Part shown: positions 3,561 to 17,828 of the stretch, in pieces | How positions within the stretch are numbered: the stretch's first letter is position 1 | How the letters are laid out: each line of letters opens with the position of its first letter | NCBI GenBank assembly: GCA_031279525.1 | Contig: JAITIH010000114.1 | Coordinates: 1 to 17,828 of the forward strand | Source: Deltaproteobacteria bacterium | Lineage (GTDB): Bacteria; Desulfobacterota; Desulfarculia; Adiutricales; Adiutricaceae | Direction of reading: 5' to 3' | Length of the DNA stretch: 17,828 bases | Made by a program: the position numbers and the translations under genes | Notes under the pieces: generated by a model | Told to the model about the DNA's origin: nothing | Databases searched by the model: none | The model's input: the letters and a program-made list of their open reading frames with translations, nothing else

Positions 3561-3585
3561 TTTTGGCCCATTCGCCGCGGCTCCT

Positions 3586-3736
3586 TCGCCTCTCCCTTCG
3601 CTTTCTTACCCATAAGCCCAAGGGAAGCGCGGCTAACGTTCCCAGCCAAAAAAGGTCGCTTTACGGCGGCCTTTTTTTGGGGGGCTGTCCCCTTGGCCTT
3701 TAAGGGCCATTTTAGTTGCGTTCGCTTAAGAGGCTA
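3586..3736. repeat. Direct repeat copy 1 (about 150 bp) of the tolB 3' flank
   Basis: It is highly similar to 3746-3900. Both begin TCGCCTCTCCCTTCGCTTTC, hold a hairpin with A and T runs, and end TTGCGTTCGCTTA(A)GAGGCTA. In copy 2 this last CTA is the complement of the tolB stop codon. Here it is followed by unrelated sequence. Confidence 0.85.
3646..3680. terminator. Bidirectional terminator hairpin in repeat copy 1
   Basis: CC-A6-GGTCGCT, loop TTAC, GGCGGCC-T7-GG. The stem is complete if G-T pairs are allowed. The A run on one side and the T run on the other make it able to act in both directions. Confidence 0.7.
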
Positions 3737-3745
3737 GCGGCCCCC

Positions 3746-3900
3746 TCGCCTCTCCCTTCGCTTTCTTACCCGTAACCCATAAGCCCAGAGGAACCGCGGC
3801 TAGCGTTCCCAACCAAAAAAGGTCGCCTTACGGCGACCTTTTTTGGGGGCTAGCCCCTTGGCCTTTAAAGGCCATTTTAGTTGCGTTCGCTTAGAGGCTA
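3746..3900. repeat. Direct repeat copy 2 (about 155 bp), ending exactly at the tolB stop codon
   Basis: This is the copy next to tolB. Similarity to copy 1 stops at 3900, the first base of the tolB stop on the minus strand. The duplication therefore covers the 3' flank and the stop codon but no further sense codons. Confidence 0.85.
3813..3846. terminator. Bidirectional terminator between tolB and the glutamate synthase-like gene
   Basis: A perfect 15-bp stem, CC-A6-GGTCGCC with GGCGACC-T6-GG and a TTAC loop, lies about 50 bases beyond the tolB stop. It has a T run on each strand. It fits the convergent gene arrangement. Confidence 0.85.
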
Positions 3901-5229
3901 TTGGCTCAAGTCCGGCATAACCGGGCTCCAGGAGGGCAGCGACTGGGAGCCCTGGAGCAGGGGGCTTAGAATCTGTTGGCGGTCGCCGTTGGCCGACATG
4001 ACGTACAGCTTTTCCCCGCCGGATCTCGTGCTGGAGAAGACGATCATCCGCCCGTCCGGGGAGAAGCTAGGATGTAGGTTCCGGCCTTGGCCGCCGGTCA
4101 ACTGCCTAAAGCCTGAGCCGTCGGGGTTAATGATCGCGATATCCCGCTCGCCCACCACGAAGGCGATTTTATCGCCCTTGGGCGACCAGGCCGGATCGGT
4201 GCTCTTGCCGCCCGGCGACAAGCGCACCCCGGGGCTCCCTGGGCCCGCGGCCACGTAAACGCTGGCGGTCCCGGCTTGGTCGGAGACGTAAGCCATCCGC
4301 CCATCCGGGGCGAAGGTCGGGGAGATCTCAATGCCGCCCCCATTGGTGATGACCCTAGGAGACCGCCCATCGAACATGGCGATGTTCGTGCTGGTCCGGC
4401 CGGACAGTCCGGCCACCACCACCCCGCCCGGGGTGAAGGCCGGGGCGATGACCGGCTCGCCGCTATAGACGACCCGGCCGTTGACCAAAAGCTCCCACTT
4501 CTTGCCGTTGCGGTGGACCCAAGCCGTCTTATCGCCGGGTCCCAAGGTCGGCTGGGTCGAGGGCCCGCCCCGGGAGCCGGCCAGGATGGTCTGCTCGTCG
4601 CCGCCCAACTCGGTCATGGCCACGGACCGGTTGGCCCGGTCGCCGGTCACGTAAATGATTTTCGTGCCAAAGACCCCTGGGATCCCGGTGATGGCCAAGA
4701 TGACCTCATTGGTGAAGCGGCCAATCATGGCCTTGCCGTCTTTGGTCGAGCCCGAGAGCTTTTTGGCCAACATCTGCTGGCCGCTGGCCACGTTAAAAAG
4801 CCTTAGTTCCAAAGTCAAGCGCGAGCCGGAAGGTTGGGCTATCCCTTTTATAACGAAGTTGGCCCCGATCTGGGCCCAAGGGGCGTAGTCGATCGGCGGG
4901 CCTTCGGTCACCCCGGCCCGAGGATTGGCCTCCAAGGAAGAGCGGGGGTCGACCAGTCGAAATAGGCCGGTCATTTCCAGGTTGTCGGCCAGACGCTTAT
5001 TTAAGACTGGGGCTACGCCCTCGGCTCTTTCCGGGCCTTTAGGGCCCAAAAAGTCGGCCACCACAATGTTAAAGCGATTCATGGTCCCGGAAAGGTCCAC
5101 CGGGATGATGACGGAGGGGTTTTGGTACTCCAGCCCGCCGCCGTCTTGGGCCAAAAGGCTGGGGGCCGCCGCTAGGCAAAGGCCCGCGAAAAGAAGGATA
5201 ACGCCTAAAAACGCGAGTTTACGCCTCAT
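3898..5229 (-). CDS. tolB: Tol-Pal system protein TolB
   Basis: TolB is a periplasmic protein that links Pal and outer-membrane components to the TolQRA motor during cell-envelope constriction. The protein is 443 residues from the start chosen here, close to the usual length. It has a Sec signal peptide (MRRKLAFLGVILLFAGLCLA), an N-terminal alpha/beta domain with the RFNIVVADF and IGANFVIKG strands, then a beta-propeller with the repeats SPTFAPDGRMAYVSD, DPAWSPKGDKIAFV and HPSFSPDGRMIVFSS. I start at ATG 5229, not at the upstream codon at 5274, because GAGGTG lies 7 bases before it and the signal peptide then starts correctly. Neither pal nor tolQRA is in the window. It lies downstream of bamA on the same strand with a 223-bp gap, so separate transcription is possible. 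Confidence 0.95.
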   Translation of the reverse strand: MRRKLAFLGVILLFAGLCLAAAPSLLAQDGGGLEYQNPSVIIPVDLSGTMNRFNIVVADFLGPKGPERAEGVAPVLNKRLADNLEMTGLFRLVDPRSSLEANPRAGVTEGPPIDYAPWAQIGANFVIKGIAQPSGSRLTLELRLFNVASGQQMLAKKLSGSTKDGKAMIGRFTNEVILAITGIPGVFGTKIIYVTGDRANRSVAMTELGGDEQTILAGSRGGPSTQPTLGPGDKTAWVHRNGKKWELLVNGRVVYSGEPVIAPAFTPGGVVVAGLSGRTSTNIAMFDGRSPRVITNGGGIEISPTFAPDGRMAYVSDQAGTASVYVAAGPGSPGVRLSPGGKSTDPAWSPKGDKIAFVVGERDIAIINPDGSGFRQLTGGQGRNLHPSFSPDGRMIVFSSTRSGGEKLYVMSANGDRQQILSPLLQGSQSLPSWSPVMPDLSQ

Positions 5230-5236
5230 GTTTAAA

Positions 5237-5242
5237 CACCTC
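5237..5242 (-). promoter_or_regulatory. Ribosome binding site that decides the tolB start
   Basis: GAGGTG on the minus strand, 7 bases before ATG 5229. No comparable site precedes the alternative start at 5274. Confidence 0.75.
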
Positions 5243-5415
5243 AAAATAATACGAGCGAAAAGCATTTCCCCCAAAAATATGGCCTAAAAAAAGCGGGCCC
5301 CGGTAGGTCGAAAGGCCCCCATAAAGGCCTTTTATTCATAAAAAAGCCCTAAAAACCCATAATAGGCCATGATTTAGCTAAAAAAGGCTTTTTTGGCCCT
5401 TTGGCCGCCACTGGC

Positions 5416-5462
5416 CTTTTAGCCTTAAGAACATGTCATGACGCTTTTAGCCTTAGAACATG
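5416..5462. repeat. Short tandem duplication across the bamA stop codon
   Basis: CTTTTAGCCTTAAGAACATG (5416-5435) and CTTTTAGCCTTAGAACATG (5444-5462) are copies 28 bases apart. The inner copy holds the last two codons and stop of bamA (Met-Phe-stop). The outer copy has one extra base that changes the stop. Confidence 0.75.
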
Positions 5463-8122
5463 GCCCCCATGGTGAACTCCCAGCGCCCGGCCGGGTCGCC
5501 GGCGTCGGCGTCGAGAGCCCGGCCATACTCAATGCGCAACGGCCCCATGGGGGAGAGGTAGCGTAAGCCGGCCCCGTAGCTGCGCTTTAAGTTGGAGAAG
5601 CTATAATCTTGGAATTTGGTCCAGACGTTGCCCATGTCGTAGAAGACCACCCCAAAAAGCCCTGAGTCCTTAATCAACGGGAAGGTCAACTCAAAGTTTA
5701 AGACCATCATTTTTTCGCCGCCGATGTTCTCTTGCGTCTCCGGGTCCTTGGGCGAGACGTCGTACCAGTCGTAGCCGAGGATGGAGTTGATGCCGCCTAG
5801 CATGTATTTTTCGTAGACCGGCAAGCCGCCCCTTTTGGTCTCGTCGGCGAAGCCGCCCTCGAAGTGGGCCATGAAGGCCATGCCGTTAAAGTAGGGCACC
5901 GGGACCCATTTGGCGAACTCGACTTCGTAGCGGTTAAAGGCTGTCTCCCCGCCCAGGAGGCTAACGCCGACGGTGTAGCCTAACCGGGCCGTGGACCCGG
6001 AGGTCGGCTGGAAGAAGTGATTCCGGGTGTCGCGGCGCAGGGCGAAGGAAAAGGTGCTGTTGACGGAGTTGCCCATCATGGACCTTAAGTAGGCCGAGGA
6101 ATTGATCCCGACGTCGGAGATTTCCACCTCTTCCCAAGAGTAGGTGCCGGTCAGGTAGAAGCGCTCGAAGACCGGGTAGCCGACCCGGATGGCCGCGCCC
6201 TTGGAGTCTTTGCGGTAGTAGTCGAAGTTATTGTAATACTTGAACAAGTCGAGCCCCATCATAAGGGGGATGTCGCCAACCCAAGGGTCGGTGAAGGAAA
6301 AGTTAAAGTAGTTGCTCTCGCTGCCGATGTTGGCCTCCAAGGCGATCCGGCGGCCGTAGCCGAAAAGGTTGTCCTGGGTTAGGCGGATCGTCCCGAAGAT
6401 GGAATTGTAGTTGCTGTAGCCGGCCCCGATCTGGAAGGATCCGGTCGGCCGCTCCTTGACCTCGACCCTTAAGTTCATCTTGTCGTTGGCGTCCGAGGGA
6501 CTGGGCACGAGGTTAATGTCCTCGAAAAAGGAGCTGCGCATTAGGTTGTTTTGGCTGTCTCTGAGCTTGGAGTTGGAGGTCAGGTCCCCTTCGGAGAACT
6601 CCAAGTGGCGCCTAATGACCTTGTCGCGGGTCTTGTCGTTGCCGACGATGGTGATGCGGTCGTAGTAAACCGTGTTTTTGGGCATGACCGAGAAAGCCAC
6701 GGGCAGGACGTTGGCCTCGTCGGGCTCTCCAAACACGGGCTCGACCTCATTGTGGGCGTAGCCCTGGTCGGCGTAATAGTTCTTCAGCCGATTGACGTCC
6801 TCTTGGAGGAGCTCCCGGTTCCACCAGGTCTCGTCTTTAATCTGGACCAAGTCTTCCAGCATCTCGTCGGGTTTATCGGTCTCCAATAAATCGCCGGTCA
6901 AGGTTACCTGGCCCACCTTGAAACGGGCCCCCTCGTTAATGGGGAAGGTGACCACGAAGCCGTCGGTCCCCTCCTCGCTCTCGACGCTGGGCTCACCGAC
7001 CCTAGCCAAAAGAAAGCCGTTATTGTGATAGTACTGGGTCAAGAGCTGGGCGTCGTTGGCCAGCTTTTCCCGGTCCAACTTCCCCGACCCGGTCAGCCAA
7101 GAGGTCAAAAAGAAGCGGGTCTCGCTCTCGATTTGGCCTTTTAAGGCCCAGCCGGCGTAAAACTCGTTGCCCTCAAAGCGGATTTCCCGAATGTAAAGCT
7201 TCCCGCCCTCGACGATCTGGAAAACTAGCCTGGCTTTCCCTTCTTCCCCAGGCTGGAGCTCGTAAGTCACCTGGGCCATGGGGTAGCCCTTGTCGGAGTA
7301 AAATTTCTGGAGGTTGTTGACGGCCGTGGTCAAGCGTTCGTCGGTGGCCAAGTCCAGGACCTTGACCCCCACGACCTCCTCTAGGTCCTCGGCGTCGAAC
7401 TTGGAGTTGCCTTGGTAAACGATGACCCCGATCTGCGGCCTTTCGGTCACCCTAAAGTGGACCGCTTTCCCGCCGGGCACGTCGTCGACCTCAACGCTGA
7501 CCGTCTCGAAATAGCCCATGGAGTGTAAGCGCCTAATGTCCGAGGCCGCCTTGGTCTCGTTGTAGGTGCCGCCTCGCCGGATCCTCAAGGAGTTTAGAAT
7601 GGCCTCGTTCTCGACCAGGCCGCTGCCGGTTATGGAGACCGACACGACCCTGGCCCCGCCGCCAAAAAGGTGGTCGGTGACCATCAAAACCAGTCGCTCG
7701 GCCGTCTGGGGCAGGTTCTCCGAGGCCGCCGAGGAAACGCTCGCGCGCTGGCTGCCCTGCAGGCCCTGAGTCAGGGGCTGCAATTGGCCGGTTAAGGTGA
7801 AGGAGGTTCCAGACCGCGTCAAGCTTGGCGCGAACAGAAAGTCCGCTCCCAACTGGCGGGCCTGGGCCAGCACGGCGCTTTCCCCCTGGCTAAGGGTCTG
7901 GGCCCCCATGGCCAGCGGCTGGAAGCCCTGGGCCTGCAAAGCGGACACCGTTAGCTCCAAAAGCCCCCGGCTGATGTTGCTCAGCTGCTCTAGCTGGGTC
8001 CCAGTCACCCCCACCACCTGGTAAGGGGCCACGGCGATCTTTTGCCCGGTCTGCCCCCAGGCCTGGGCCGCCCCAAAGGTCAGACAGCCAAAAATCAGGA
8101 GGACAAGCGGTTTTTTAAGCAT
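5453..8122 (-). CDS. bamA: Outer membrane protein assembly factor BamA (Omp85)
   Basis: BamA inserts beta-barrel proteins into the outer membrane. The 889-residue protein has a signal peptide (1-21), an extra N-terminal alpha/beta domain (about 25-150), five POTRA domains (about 157-229, 230-309, 310-401, 402-485, 486-558) and a C-terminal barrel (about 559-889) ending in Phe. E. coli BamA is about 810 residues; the added N-terminal domain, also known in other deltaproteobacterial BamA proteins (recalled), explains the difference. Start ATG 8122 has CCGGAG 7 bases upstream. One oddity: the barrel motif usually written (V/I)RG(F/Y) reads Ile781-Leu782-Gly-Tyr, so the conserved arginine is replaced (codon CTC at 5777-5779). 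Upstream lies the long repeat array separating it from lolD; downstream is tolB. Confidence 0.97.
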   Translation of the reverse strand: MLKKPLVLLIFGCLTFGAAQAWGQTGQKIAVAPYQVVGVTGTQLEQLSNISRGLLELTVSALQAQGFQPLAMGAQTLSQGESAVLAQARQLGADFLFAPSLTRSGTSFTLTGQLQPLTQGLQGSQRASVSSAASENLPQTAERLVLMVTDHLFGGGARVVSVSITGSGLVENEAILNSLRIRRGGTYNETKAASDIRRLHSMGYFETVSVEVDDVPGGKAVHFRVTERPQIGVIVYQGNSKFDAEDLEEVVGVKVLDLATDERLTTAVNNLQKFYSDKGYPMAQVTYELQPGEEGKARLVFQIVEGGKLYIREIRFEGNEFYAGWALKGQIESETRFFLTSWLTGSGKLDREKLANDAQLLTQYYHNNGFLLARVGEPSVESEEGTDGFVVTFPINEGARFKVGQVTLTGDLLETDKPDEMLEDLVQIKDETWWNRELLQEDVNRLKNYYADQGYAHNEVEPVFGEPDEANVLPVAFSVMPKNTVYYDRITIVGNDKTRDKVIRRHLEFSEGDLTSNSKLRDSQNNLMRSSFFEDINLVPSPSDANDKMNLRVEVKERPTGSFQIGAGYSNYNSIFGTIRLTQDNLFGYGRRIALEANIGSESNYFNFSFTDPWVGDIPLMMGLDLFKYYNNFDYYRKDSKGAAIRVGYPVFERFYLTGTYSWEEVEISDVGINSSAYLRSMMGNSVNSTFSFALRRDTRNHFFQPTSGSTARLGYTVGVSLLGGETAFNRYEVEFAKWVPVPYFNGMAFMAHFEGGFADETKRGGLPVYEKYMLGGINSILGYDWYDVSPKDPETQENIGGEKMMVLNFELTFPLIKDSGLFGVVFYDMGNVWTKFQDYSFSNLKRSYGAGLRYLSPMGPLRIEYGRALDADAGDPAGRWEFTMGAMF

Positions 8123-8164
8123 GTGTTTTCTCCGGCTCCAAAAATAGCGACTAACTTCGATTTT

Positions 8165-8193
8165 ATAATGGCAATAAAGAAAATTTTTGTGAA
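8165..8193 (-). promoter_or_regulatory. Putative bamA promoter
   Basis: On the minus strand TTCACA (8188-8193), a 17-base spacer and CATTAT (8165-8170) match the -35 at 5 of 6 and the -10 at 4 of 6 positions. It lies about 42 bases before the ATG in the only AT-rich tract (8140-8220) of the gap. With the array beyond it, bamA probably has its own promoter. TATAAA, two bases further along, is an alternative -10 with a poorer spacer. Confidence 0.35.
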
Positions 8194-8222
8194 TGCATTG
8201 ACATATTTTACAAACAAATCAG

Positions 8223-8381
8223 ATACGCGTCAACCAAAATCTTCCAAAAGCCAACCCGAGCCCAGACCCGCCTGGCTCTCTTAAGGCCATTAACTCCTTA
8301 AAGAGCCAAAATAAAGCTAAAGCCTAAAAGTCGCCCGGACCGGACATAGGGTCTATAAAGCCTTCCTAACCTAAAGCCAAA
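8223..8381. other. Non-coding spacer between the bamA promoter and the repeat array
   Basis: I see no gene or recognisable RNA here. The sequence shares short words (CCTAAAG, AAGGCC, CTAACC) with the neighbouring array but does not align with its units. Confidence 0.4.
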
Positions 8382-8960
8382 GGCCTGGCCCGCCCTAGCG
8401 CCCTTAGGGGCTTTTGGCCCTGGCCTAACCCGGCCAAAGCCACGGTCTCCTAAGCCTAGCCAAATGGGCCTGGCCCGCCCTAGCCGCCCTTACGGGCTTT
8501 TTGACCCTGGCCTAACCCGGCCAGGGCCCCGGTCTCCTAAGCCTTAGTCAAATGGTTCGGCTCGCCCTAGCCGCCCTTACGGGCTTTTTGGCCCTGGCCT
8601 AACCCGGCCAAAGCCACAATCTCCTAAGCCTATCCAAATGGGCCTGGCTCGCCCTAGCCGCTCTTACGGGCTTTTTGGCCCTAGCCTAACCCGGCCAGGG
8701 CCCCGGTCTCCTAAGCCTATCCAAATGGTTCGGCTCGCCCTAGCCGCCCTTACGGGCTTTTGGCCCTAGCCTAACCCGGCCAAAGCCCCGATCTCCTAAG
8801 CCTATCCAAATGGTTCGGCTCGCCCTAGCCGTCCTTACGGGCTTTTTGGCCCTGGCCTAACCCGGCCAGGGCCCCGGTCTCCTAAGCCTTAGTCAAATGG
8901 TTCGGCTCGCCCTAGCCGCCCTTACGGGCTTTTTGGCCCTAGCCTAACCCGGCCAGGGCC
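8382..8960. repeat. Seven-copy tandem array of about 86 bp, reaching into the lolD 3' end
   Basis: The anchor CGCCCTAG occurs at 8391, 8476, 8563, 8650, 8736, 8821 and 8908, a period of 85-87 bp. Each unit has CTTACGGGC followed by a T run, then a CCTAACCCGGCC core and, except in the last unit, TCTCCTAAGCC. The last unit ends inside lolD, so its core is the lolD stop codon and last codons (Pro-Trp-Pro-Gly-stop). Units alternate between two types, with CCAAAGCC or CCAGGGCC after the core (A, B, A, B, A, B, B). Units lack spacer-like variable segments, so this is not a CRISPR array. It separates lolD from bamA. Confidence 0.95.
8935..8960 (-). terminator. Hairpin enclosing the lolD stop codon
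   Basis: In the lolD transcript GGCCCUGGCC and GGCUAGGGCC form a 10-bp stem with one G-U pair and a GGGUUA loop, so the stop codon lies across the loop and stem. There is no T run just after it on this strand. A second small hairpin (GCCC, loop GTAA, GGGC) follows with its T run on the plus strand. It may protect the 3' end or terminate antisense transcription rather than terminate lolD. Confidence 0.4.
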
Positions 8961-9762
8961 TTAAGCGGCCATTGACCAGCTCCAGGCGGGTTTCCATCTG
9001 TCGAGCCAGATCGGCGTTGTGGGTGACCACCACCGCGCTCATTTTTTTCTCGGCCACCAGCTCGCTAATGAGAGCGTTGACCAGGGCGGCGCTCTGAGCG
9101 TCTAAGTTGCCGGTGGGCTCGTCGGCTAAAAGAACCTTCGGCGAAAGGACCAGGGCTCTAGCCAGGGCCACTCGCTGCTGCTCGCCGCCGGAGAGCTTCC
9201 CGGGCCGGTGGCTGAGCCTTTGGGCCAAGCCCACCCTTTCCAATAAAGGCTTGGCCAGTCCCTCGGCCTGGGCCTGGGACAGACCGGCCACTAAGGCCGG
9301 CATGGCCACGTTTTCTAAGGCCGCGAACTCGGACAGAAGGTGGTGATACTGAAACACGAACCCCACCTCCCTCGCCCGCCAGCGAGCCAACTCCGGCTCG
9401 CTCAGTCGAAACACGTCCAGCCCCCGCGACAGGACCTGCCCGCCACTGGGCCGGTCTAAGCCCCCTAGTAGATATAGGAGGGTGGATTTCCCCGAACCCG
9501 AGGCCCCTAAGATGGCCAAGGACTGGCCCGAGGCCACTTTAAGGCTTAGGCCTTTTAAGATGGCGAGCTCCTGGCCCCCGGTCGCGAAGGTTTTTTTTAG
9601 GTCCCTGGCCTCAAGGAGAGGCCCGGTCGTCGCCTTTTCGGCCTCAAGGGCCTGGTCCCCGGGGCCGGCCTCGCTCCCGCCTAACTCAGGCGCCCCGTCC
9701 CGGCCGGGCCGCCGGCCCGCCTTACTGGCTTGCCTGGCCCGAGCCTGGGCGACCCTACTCAT
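8944..9762 (-). CDS. lolD: Lipoprotein-releasing system ATP-binding protein LolD
   Basis: This cytoplasmic ATPase powers release of lipoproteins from the inner membrane. The 272-residue protein has Walker A GASGSGKST (86-94), Q-loop Gln138 in FQYHHLL, signature LSGGEQQR (190-197), Walker B VLLADEP (210-216) and H-loop His248. The YHHLL after the Q-loop and the TGNLD after Walker B suit the LolD/MacB group. Compared with the usual 230 or so residues it has about 45 extra N-terminal residues, rich in Ala, Gly and Arg. The start ATG 9762 overlaps the end of the permease gene by 8 bases (ATGAGTAG) and has GGAGG nine bases upstream. This supports translational coupling and the long N-terminus. Its last codons and stop lie in the final unit of the tandem array. 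Confidence 0.95.
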   Translation of the reverse strand: MSRVAQARARQASKAGRRPGRDGAPELGGSEAGPGDQALEAEKATTGPLLEARDLKKTFATGGQELAILKGLSLKVASGQSLAILGASGSGKSTLLYLLGGLDRPSGGQVLSRGLDVFRLSEPELARWRAREVGFVFQYHHLLSEFAALENVAMPALVAGLSQAQAEGLAKPLLERVGLAQRLSHRPGKLSGGEQQRVALARALVLSPKVLLADEPTGNLDAQSAALVNALISELVAEKKMSAVVVTHNADLARQMETRLELVNGRLRPWPG

Positions 9763-11278
9763 AGCGGAGGGCCTCCACCGGGTCGTAACTGGCCGCCCTT
9801 TTGGCCGGGTAGACCGTGGCCAGGTAGCTGATGGCCATGGAGACCACGGCGATGGCCGTGGCCTGGGGCCAACGCAGCTCCACCGGCAATGAGCTCATTA
9901 AATATATCTCCGCCGGCAGGGTAATGAACTCGTAACGCTTAAGCAATAAGCATAAGGCGATCCCGAAAGCCAGGCCCCCGACGGTCCCGACCAGGCCCAC
10001 CAATAGACCTTGGAGGGTAAAGATCCGGCGAACCTGGGCCGAGGTGGCCCCCATGGCCTTGAGGATGGCGATGTCTCTGGTTTTCTCGGCCACCATCATG
10101 ATGAGGGTCGAGGCGATGTTAAAGGCGGCCACCAAGATGATCAGGGTCAAGATGACGAACATGGCCGTCCTTTCCAGCTTTAAGGCGGAAAAAAGGCTTA
10201 GGTTCATGCGCATCCAGTCTCGGCCCCAGTAGTCGGGGCCCAACAGCTCGACGATCTCGCGGCGGATCAGGTCGGCCTTATAGATGTCGTCCACCTTGAC
10301 CTCCAAGTAGGTGACCTCGCCCGGGGCCAGGCCCAGAAGGCTGGCCGCCTCCTCTAAGGTCGTAAAGGCCAGCTTGGAGTCAAAGTCGTAATAGTGGGCC
10401 TGAAACGTCCCGGCCACCTTAAAGTAGCGCGTCAAAGGAGCCCTCTGGCCTAAGGGGGTGACCCGACCAAAGGGGGAGATGACCCGCACGGTGGAGAGGG
10501 TCCCCACCCCTAAGCTCATGGCCAGCTCTCGGCCCAGCATTATGGGCCTTTCCGGATCGGGCTCAGGCGGTTCGGCCGCCGGCGCGGCTAGACTTGGCTC
10601 GCTAGATCCAGCTTCGGCCGGCTCTTTCCGGTCGGCCTGGGCCTCAGTCGCCCCATCTTCAGTCGCCCTTTCTTCGGTGACCCCTTCCTCAGTCGCCCCT
10701 TCTTCGGTCGCCCCTTCTTCGGCGACCCCTTCTTCGGTGGCCCCTTCTTCAGTCGCCCCATTGGCGGGCGCGGGATCGTCGGGCAGAAACTCCTCATCCT
10801 CGGCGAACTCGGGAAAATAGAACTCCCCCGGGAAATTGGCGATCATGGGTTGGCGGGTCAGGTTAGCCACCGCCGCCGGGGAGACGTTTAGAGTCTCAAA
10901 GAACCCAGCCTCGGCCGTGGCCGCCGGGTCTAGCCCCATGAGGACGACGCCGGTGGCCCCGGACCCGCTGGCCAACAAGGCCTGGCCTTGGATGAAGGGG
11001 AGGACGGTCCGGACCCCGGGGACGGTTTTGATTTTGGCGACCAACTCCGGCCAACCGGCCAGGTTGCCGCCGGAGCGAAAAATCGAGACGTGGGGCGAAA
11101 GGCCCAAAAGCTTATTTTTAAGGTTAGTCTCAAAGCCGTTTAGGACGGCCAAGACCACGATAAGGGCCGCCACCCCCAGGCCCACCCCGCCCACGGCCAG
11201 GACCGAAATGAGGGAAACCAAGCTGTCGCGCCGCTTGGCTCGCAAGTAGCGGATGGCGATGGTCCGTTCTATCGACAT
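9755..11278 (-). CDS. Lipoprotein-releasing ABC transporter permease (LolC/LolE family) with a pentapeptide-repeat insertion
   Basis: This inner-membrane permease works with LolD to pass lipoproteins to the periplasmic carrier. Of 507 residues (the family is usually near 410) there are four membrane segments: about 22-48, 373-396, 424-447 and 472-490. A large periplasmic domain lies between the first two. The region FSALKLERTAMFVILTLIILVAAFNI, then EKTRDIAILKAMGA, is characteristic of the family. Only one permease gene is present, so a homodimer is likely, as in other bacteria with a single LolC/E gene. Residues about 152-244 are extra, acidic and of low complexity, and include eight 5-residue repeats of the GATEE type (174-213). 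The start at ATG 11278 has no clear Shine-Dalgarno sequence. lysS ends 105 bases upstream, and lolD overlaps its end. I leave the symbol blank because LolC and LolE cannot be separated here. Confidence 0.93.
   Translation of the reverse strand: MSIERTIAIRYLRAKRRDSLVSLISVLAVGGVGLGVAALIVVLAVLNGFETNLKNKLLGLSPHVSIFRSGGNLAGWPELVAKIKTVPGVRTVLPFIQGQALLASGSGATGVVLMGLDPAATAEAGFFETLNVSPAAVANLTRQPMIANFPGEFYFPEFAEDEEFLPDDPAPANGATEEGATEEGVAEEGATEEGATEEGVTEERATEDGATEAQADRKEPAEAGSSEPSLAAPAAEPPEPDPERPIMLGRELAMSLGVGTLSTVRVISPFGRVTPLGQRAPLTRYFKVAGTFQAHYYDFDSKLAFTTLEEAASLLGLAPGEVTYLEVKVDDIYKADLIRREIVELLGPDYWGRDWMRMNLSLFSALKLERTAMFVILTLIILVAAFNIASTLIMMVAEKTRDIAILKAMGATSAQVRRIFTLQGLLVGLVGTVGGLAFGIALCLLLKRYEFITLPAEIYLMSSLPVELRWPQATAIAVVSMAISYLATVYPAKRAASYDPVEALRYE
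10640..10759. repeat. 15-bp coding minisatellite in the LolC/E permease gene
   Basis: About eight in-frame 15-bp units (on the plus strand of the form GGTCGCCCCTTCTTC with variants) encode GATEE, GVAEE, GVTEE, RATED and similar. Unit-length changes keep the frame, so the tract is likely to vary in length between strains. Confidence 0.9.
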
Positions 11279-13383: not shown

Positions 13384-13658
13384 TTTGCGCGCACCTCCGT
13401 CAATCCACGCCGACTTCCCAGCCGAGCCGAAAGACGACCGATATTAGTCGCCAATAAGGCGGGGACGAGCCACGCCCCACTTTTCTGGGGCCTTAAAAAC
13501 AATCCCGCGAAAGATATAAAAAAAATTTCCAGCTTTCGCCCTGAGAATTTTAACCTAAACTAAACATTTTGTGAAGAAAAAAAAGACAAACCCAAAATAT
13601 AGACTTCTTTAGCCTCAGCCAATTTAAAAACCGTCCCAAATTAAAGCCAAACAAATCT

Positions 13659-13763
13659 GATGGCTTCGCAAAAAGTCCGGAAAATAAAAACCAGAAAAAT
13701 AACATCATGAAATTATTAAAGGATTTTTCCAACGATTCCCAAAAACAGGGTTATTGCGAGACC
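13659..13763 (-). repeat. Dispersed inverted repeat, copy 1
   Basis: Read on the minus strand, this 105-bp block matches 16909-17014 on the plus strand, with roughly 85% identity by eye. Shared segments include GGAAAAATCCTTT, GTTATTTTTCTGG and a 27-base identical core ending GCGAAGCCATC. The AT-rich composition contrasts with the neighbourhood. Confidence 0.9.
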
Positions 13764-13930
13764 GTCAAATCTATCCAAGCCCAGGCCATCGGCCTCCAAC
13801 CCTGGCCCGAGTCGCTTGCCCGTCTTTATAGGGTCTGACCCTAAGGCCCTGCGAGAGCCAAAGCCAACTCGCCTTAAGACGGCTTTTTTCCCAAGGGCCT
13901 AAGCCAGGCGGCCGCCGCCCTTTTAGGCCC

Positions 13931-14193
13931 TTTAATCGCTTGGCCTTTTTTGGCTCAATAACCCGTTAAGATAAGGTTCAAAGCCGCAGGCCCAGGCCAA
14001 AATCGCAAACAAAACGTTTTTACCCGCCGAAAAAGCCCTAAGGCCATAGGCCGCCGCGAAGCGGCGTCTTTAACCGCCTGGCCTTTTTTGGCTCAATAAC
14101 CGTTAAGATAAGGCTCAAAGCCGCAGGCCCTGGGCAAAATCACAAGCAAAAACTCTTTAACCGTCTAAAAGCCCAAGGCCCAAGGCCGCCGCC
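13931..14193. repeat. Two-copy direct repeat of about 125 bp, 138 bp apart
   Basis: Copy 1 (about 13931-14057) and copy 2 (about 14068-14193) share GGCCTTTTTTGGCTCAATAA, CGTTAAGATAAGG, TCAAAGCCGCAGGCCC and a closing AAGGCCGCCGCC-like block. Between them is a small perfect hairpin CGCCGC-GAA-GCGGCG (14052-14066). I see no coding potential. Confidence 0.85.
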
Positions 14194-16908: not shown

Positions 16909-17014
16909 GGTCTCTCAAAAACCCCTGTTTTCGGGAATCATTGGAAAAATCCTTTTATAATTTCAAGAGGTTATTTTTCTGGGTTTCATTTTCCGGACTT
17001 TTTGCGAAGCCATC
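16909..17014 (+). repeat. Dispersed inverted repeat, copy 2
   Basis: This is the partner of 13659-13763 in the opposite orientation. In both copies one frame stays open and would read ESLEKSF, then LFFW, then FSGLFAKPS. However, most differences change the amino acid, so coding is doubtful. With the first copy it brackets the hemA and precorrin-2 dehydrogenase genes. Confidence 0.9.
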
Positions 17015-17290
17015 TTTTTTGGCTAAAGCCTTTAGATTGGCCGCTTAGGGCTTTAGGGCCAGGGGGCCCTAAAGCTAAAGGCTCGCCAGGCCAAACTTAA
17101 TAGACTATATCTATCAAATAATTTATTAAATAAATAGCTTTTTAATATCTATAAATATTTTTACTAGAAAATATTAATTATTTTCCAGCAAATTAAACTA
17201 TAAAAAACTGTTTTTTAATTATGTTGTCATTTTCCGAGCCCTGGATTAAAATACCTCGCGGGTCAATTTAAGGCTTAACCATTTCTATAG

Positions 17291-17567: not shown

Positions 17568-17646
17568 ATAGCTCCCAAGCGAGCGAGCGAGCCTTTACCC
17601 CTTCGGCGAGCCGATCGCTTTTCGTTTTCCGCCCGCCCGCCAAACC

Positions 17647-17828
17647 TAAGGCCTCGCCCAAAAAATAAGGCCCACTTTAAATCAAGGCCTGGCCACAAAA
17701 GTAAGGCCCACCTTAAACGCATGGCCTGGCCCTAAAGTCAGGCCCCGCCTCAAAAATAAGGCCCGCCCTAAACGCAAGGCCCGCCGCTAAAGTCAGGCCC
17801 CGCCTCAAAAATAAGGCCCGCCCTAAAC
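17647..17828. repeat. Tandem repeat at the right edge (55-bp period, incomplete)
   Basis: The word TAAGGCCC recurs at 17666, 17702, 17757 and 17812. The stretches 17736-17773 and 17791-17828 are identical over 38 bases. The units hold AGTCAGGCCCCGCCTC and CCTAAACGC. The array continues beyond the window, and the first copies are shorter and more diverged. Confidence 0.85.

Follow-up and report, generated by a model that had tools for sequence, protein, structure and literature searches.

Local tandem duplication throughout the genome, acting together with selection on reading frames and promoters, is the probable source of the repeats that we found at the 3' ends of lolD, tolB and bamA in a stretch of bacterial DNA. 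These repeats would be three such events, with 3' ends forming the unprotected edge of the process. The gene ends seem to mark the border of the duplicated DNA and not to have caused it, so that the case is mostly ordinary. Two readings of gene-end repeats can thus be told apart, one invoking a special mechanism at stop codons and the other the edge of a genome-wide process trimmed by selection, and the second fits better.

Source genome and survey sample

The window, that is, the whole stretch of DNA analysed (17,828 nt), is one entire contig (C6). The metagenome-assembled genome to which it belongs has 355 contigs that add up to 1.75 Mb, and its completeness is put at 64%. The closest named relatives of this genome are bins labelled Deltaproteobacteria and Candidatus Adiutrix, the complete genome Smac51 being more distant. 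Kinship to these bins indicates that the bacterium probably came from a termite gut. A further genome of the same species was not found; those nearest to it belong to other species of the genus. Within the window, Rfam matched tRNA only and no other RNA family. The survey covered 101 of the 355 contigs of the genome itself, 504,555 nt in total. For comparison it took in 248,805 nt of G003, a relative within the genus, and 400,000 nt of Smac51, each as 20 stretches. Survey genes were called with a simple codon-usage script, by which stop positions are exact and start positions approximate.

Duplications at the ends of lolD, tolB and bamA

The order lolD-bamA-tolB is retained in the relatives that hold the three genes. 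The features concerned are as follows.

3577..3733, minus strand: distal copy of the tolB 3' flank (TRF; alignment)
3734..3900, minus strand: proximal copy of the tolB 3' flank, starting at the stop triplet (3898-3900), with a strong symmetrical hairpin (TRF; alignment; fold of 3780-3900, z -5.06)
3898..5274, minus strand: tolB (Pfam TolB_N and PD40)
5416..5435, minus strand: near-copy (20 nt) of the bamA 3' end, outside the gene (sequence; shuffle p=0.002)
5444..5462, minus strand: bamA 3' end matched by the near-copy, coding portion 5453-5462 (sequence alignment)
5453..8122, minus strand: bamA (Pfam Omp85 and POTRA)
8205..8233, minus strand: promoter-like site of bamA, TTGACG-17-TAAAAT, outside the lolD array (consensus scan)
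8375..8960, minus strand: lolD array, six complete units of 85-87 nt and a 67-nt partial unit (TRF; unit alignment)
8944..9762, minus strand: lolD (Pfam ABC_tran; lolD-bamA-tolB synteny with relatives)

The most extensive of the three duplications lies at lolD. Its gene-proximal unit (u0, 8874-8960) reaches 17 nt inside the gene, and six more units run outward to 8375. Each of the seven units, of about 87 nt, carries GGC(CC/TT)TGGCCGGGTTAG, the last 17 nt plus stop of lolD, with a 2-nt difference from the gene end in three of them (u2, u4 and u6). The match covering the lolD stop scores 57, and none of 500 shuffles exceeded 14. Identity between units ranges from 82 to 97%, with both substitutions and small indels. 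The unit is specific to this locus: it occurs at six places in its own genome, all inside the array, and in six genus relatives no match to the array was longer than 42 nt.

The lolD tail, RPWPG*, has counterparts in three genus relatives, RPWRG* in L039 and RPWSG* in both L040 and L041. Because these relatives possess an RPWxG* tail but no array at the locus, the tail is native and was copied outward. The earlier note on this DNA, which read the seven units as copies of the last lolD codons and stop spreading from gene into intergenic DNA, was thus right about the direction. Between lolD and bamA lie 821 nt in this genome, as against 84 to 657 nt in relatives among the matches listed, where the gap was taken up to the point at which the BLAST match starts. 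Most of the excess is accounted for by the 569 non-coding nucleotides of the array. No array was found between lolD and bamA among the relatives listed. The lolD units also alternate in part between CC and TT types, and TRF additionally reports a 258-nt, three-unit period over 8375-8960, and this points to copying in blocks of several units. The exact copy number of the array is uncertain.

At tolB, a second copy of about 150 bp ending exactly at the stop triplet had been described as a duplicated gene end. The second copy is there, with a TRF period of 167 nt, 2.0 copies and 86% matches (3577-3900), and a score of 29.5 against at most 11.5 in 500 shuffles. However, it shares only three coding nucleotides, those of the stop triplet, and zero sense codons; what was duplicated is 3'-flanking DNA and not the end of the gene. 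Elsewhere in the genome the tolB unit has short matches only.

A copy of the last two codons and stop of bamA had likewise been placed just outside that gene. It is present but imperfect, with one T inserted relative to the original, and it includes 10 coding nucleotides. Its p value of 0.002 comes from 2000 shuffles of its own flank and is weaker once the eight 3' ends scored in the window are allowed for. The pair falls under the TRF threshold. All three duplications exceed shuffles, and that of bamA is the weakest of them. The bamA end, WEFTMGAMF*, matches relatives among those listed, with single changes in some. The consensus scan that located the promoter-like site of bamA returned three sites against a shuffle mean of 1.2, and TTGAC sites resembling it were read by eye upstream of bamA in L037, L039 and L041.

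Other repeats in the window

Duplications in the window also lie away from gene ends and inside a gene, and the earlier note had left these out. Two further repeats are of the same kind.

10644..10759, minus strand: 15-nt in-frame tandem repeat within lolC (TRF)
13930..14192, strand not assigned: 137-nt duplication, intergenic, 334 nt from the closest stop codon and unlinked to a gene end (TRF; gene calls)

The lolC repeat encodes an acidic run of the TEEGA type; no such run was found in the aligned segments of eight relatives, where the linker differs. Repeats also lie away from gene ends at 1-674 and 17640-17828. The former is an AT-rich stretch of 420 nt in two tandem copies (77-91% identical in pieces), unlike the remainder of the contig, and a 102-aa open reading frame within it (181-489) had zero Pfam matches. 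The latter is a short-period repeat (19, 36 and 55 nt) downstream of tRNA-Ser that reaches the contig end, and the assembly may have broken there.

A dispersed MITE-like element of about 110 nt is present at 13652-13755 (plus strand) and 16918-17021 (minus strand). Its termini are imperfect inverted repeats, GATGGC-TTCGCAAAAA and TTTTTGCGA-GACCATC, around an AT-rich core, with apparent short target duplications as judged by eye. It has 35 matches in its own genome including itself, and 11 copies were aligned.

Stop codons compared with start codons

A search of the last 60 nt of each gene against the 300 nt downstream, as originally proposed, finds lolD (p=0.003) but neither tolB (p=0.85) nor bamA (p=0.43). 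Since the shared stretches of tolB and bamA are mostly outside the coding part and are missed by that search, we adopted an anchor test, in which an ungapped match with a score of at least 12 is obliged to cover the stop or start triplet.

Over the 101 contigs, 17 of 171 stops and 4 of 185 starts were covered (p=0.0026), and the predicted surplus of self-duplication at 3' ends over 5' ends was therefore borne out. Without the window the counts were 14/163 and 4/177 (p=0.013); raising the threshold to 16 gave 8/171 and 3/185 (p=0.13). The first 81 contigs contributed 12 of 139 stops, where shuffles led us to expect 0.67, and 2 of 146 starts, and 20 contigs added at an unchanged threshold contributed 5/32 and 2/39. 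The same test in the comparison genomes covered 0/78 stops and 1/80 starts in G003, and 1/166 stops and 2/191 starts in Smac51.

A positional profile shows where this difference arises. Among the 171 3' ends, coverage inside the gene was 0 at position -45, 2 at -30 and 8 at -18, and it reached 17 (10%) at the stop. Moving outward, it was 16 just outside the stop, 21/169 at +60, 25/163 at +90 and 31/136 (23%) at +150. There is no peak of duplication coverage at the stop in these 171 ends, only a slope from coding into intergenic DNA, which fits spill-over of random duplications and not a process seated at the stop. On the 5' side, 4 of 185 starts were covered; within the 45 nt upstream the count stayed between 3 and 6 of 185, and it was 8/182 at 60 nt and 14/147 at 150 nt. 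A strip of about 50 nt upstream of starts is almost free of duplications, and the difference between 3' and 5' ends stems largely from this protected strip.

The TRF arrays give a similar picture. Their share of intergenic bases is 7.7%. When every TRF row is counted, and gene ends are limited to those with 60 nt of free DNA, 11 of 187 stops (5.9%) and 3 of 198 starts are spanned. Stops are thus spanned no more than intergenic bases are covered. The idea of a process that starts at gene ends is not supported by these figures, the absence of a peak and the arrays found within genes.

One result is not predicted by random breakpoints alone, namely the short coding extents of the duplications. 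At 18 covered stops they measure 3-20 nt in the ungapped test, less than the leftward extents of interior anchors in intergenic DNA (Mann-Whitney p=0.008). This control is biased, as it places several anchors in each region and draws on regions that repeats had already made longer. Divided by unit length, the distance that stop-spanning TRF arrays reach into the gene is compatible with a uniform spread (11 arrays, KS p=0.28; nine without the window, p=0.32); some of these arrays, in which indels are allowed, extend 25 to 86 nt inside.

Tandem repeats throughout the genome

We found 63 tandem arrays within genes (0.173 per kb), against 9 in G003 (0.054) and 7 in Smac51 (0.022), and 104 in non-coding DNA (0.737 per kb), against 22 (0.265) and 9 (0.116), respectively. 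The genome therefore exceeds both relatives in coding and non-coding DNA alike. As a separate observation, intergenic 9-mers recurring within 200 nt, observed versus expected from a second-order Markov model, numbered 28.5 vs 2.8 per 1000 in the genome of the window (G000), an excess of roughly tenfold. The excess is smaller in G003 (5.8 vs 2.3), while Smac51 is high as well (14.2 vs 0.8).

Of the 104 non-coding arrays, nine cross a stop, three cross a start and the other 92 lie clear of every called gene. Repeats unlinked to any gene end, which the earlier note had named as telling against its own idea, are thus the majority of these arrays. Of the intergenic arrays in the first 81 contigs, 12 of 74 reach a contig end. 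The period is divisible by three in 58 of the 63 in-gene arrays versus 38 of the 92 intergenic ones (p=3e-11), a filter on reading frame.

Proposed explanation

These observations can be accommodated as follows. Local tandem duplications would accumulate throughout the genome, in coding and non-coding DNA, by a copying step that we take to be replication slippage or unequal exchange. Inside genes, selection would let chiefly in-frame units survive. Selection would also protect the 50 nt or so ahead of each start codon, where ribosome-binding sites and promoters lie and may be disturbed by a nearby duplication, while the DNA downstream of stop codons would be unconstrained. A unit straddling a stop would leave the gene intact whatever its breakpoints, and the beginning of an array may accordingly lie a few codons within the gene, with growth directed outward. 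We infer that selection, rather than biased copying, makes the difference between 3' and 5' ends. The short coding extents and the slightly more stable folds at covered stops (see below) leave room for some local bias.

It is conceivable, but doubtful, that the lineage has entered a heightened state of tandem duplication, affecting coding and non-coding DNA alike and recently enlarging its intergenic DNA, with 3' flanks growing outward from native gene ends, as at lolD, and promoters and frames spared. Loss of mismatch repair as a simple cause was rejected, as MutS_III and MutL_C matches are present in the genome itself and in six genus relatives. With mutS and mutL present, the cause of a heightened duplication state would lie elsewhere in replication or repair.

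Alternative explanations

We consider it unlikely that intergenic DNA grows from gene ends through repeated outward copying of the stop region, by polymerase slippage or template switching at 3' hairpins. Such a mechanism accords with the surplus of 3' over 5' ends and with long stop duplications, whose inward reach in the ungapped test was 20 nt at most while they extend far outward. The hairpins that it calls for had been noted in the duplicated pieces of lolD and tolB, and both are there: that of the tolB unit is strong (z -5.06), and that of the lolD unit, on the coding strand, is moderate (z -2.07) and has a 10-pair stem whose loop contains the stop codon. The link between hairpins and covered stops is weak and statistically marginal, the median fold z being -1.12 at 17 covered stops vs -0.40 at 154 uncovered ones (p=0.047). 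No notable hairpin is present at bamA (z -0.71; own stop region, z -0.59), and none lies right at the tolB stop (z -0.36). A terminator scan returned eight sites against a shuffle mean of 9.3, none of them in the lolD array. The lack of a peak at the stop, the level at which stops are spanned relative to intergenic coverage, and the many arrays off genes or within them also speak against a process tied to hairpins at gene ends.

The lolD array might instead be a selected element, in which the lolCD transcript is terminated or stabilised by seven hairpins that also shield bamA. The stop stem can be paired in all seven units, with variable stem positions giving G-U pairs as read from the alignment, and the 17 coding-derived columns vary less among six copies than the remainder (0.071 vs 0.114). 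However, the changes in the stem are too few to assess covariation, no T-run follows the stem on the transcribed strand, the array has no terminator-like site, and the relatives listed have no array there. We regard this account as improbable.

An artefact of assembly is very improbable. The bin is indeed fragmented and incomplete, but the lolD units have diverged from one another by substitutions and small indels, and similar arrays are found on many contigs. Least credible of all is the insertion of a dispersed repeat family (REP/BIME- or MIRU-like) beside stop codons. Intergenic units of 40-170 nt with palindromes resemble such families, but here the units are mutually unlike, the lolD unit is confined to its array and the tolB unit, apart from short matches, to its locus. 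This refutes the account across the 1.75 Mb assembly; further copies in the third of the genome that the assembly lacks would bring it back.

The edge of a genome-wide process trimmed by selection is thus the reading that we retain. With so many diverged duplications, each specific to its locus, this genome could be used to gauge how selection on frames, promoters and terminators shapes intergenic growth.

Comparison with known systems

A literature search on tandem repeats under the exact phrase 'spanning the stop codon' returned no paper, which, for a single phrase, says little. Related systems are nevertheless well described. A survey of prokaryotic satellites reports in its opening parts that their abundance differs greatly between species and that long in-gene units are often multiples of three (PMC6749651). 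Its densities rest on other criteria and are not comparable with those given here, and arrays overlapping stop codons are not treated in its abstract and the first part of its Results (PMC6749651). As in the bacterial minisatellites or VNTRs described there (PMC6749651), the arrays here are locus-specific and head-to-tail. By TRF, lolD consists of head-to-tail units within the minisatellite range of about 10-200 nt, while tolB has two copies only.

Borg elements of archaea, in the portion of their description considered here, carry local, rapidly formed, genome-specific tandem repeats, in which units within open reading frames, unlike intergenic ones, are divisible by three and some arrays start inside gene ends (PMC9879509). 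Both traits recur in the present genome, where in-gene periods are multiples of three far more often than those between genes and some arrays begin within gene ends, with 11 of 187 stops spanned (cf. PMC9879509). By the same portion of that account, Borg units are perfect copies, unlike those of lolD (82-97% identity) and tolB (86% TRF matches), and Borg repeats are enriched in A and lie on archaeal extrachromosomal elements, whereas those described here lie on bacterial contigs (PMC9879509).

Units of the MIRU type can overlap adjoining stop and start codons. The MIRU-VNTR loci of Mycobacterium tuberculosis, as far as the cited portion of their description goes, are intergenic tandem units of 40-100 bp that widen the spacing between genes, at 41 locations in H37Rv (PMC2734929). 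The tandem units described here likewise enlarge intergenic spacing; unlike MIRU, which is a dispersed family, the lolD and tolB units belong to one locus each (PMC2734929). The present case is a further member of this kind of tandem repeat, with units that are diverged, unlike those of Borg elements, and local, unlike MIRU.
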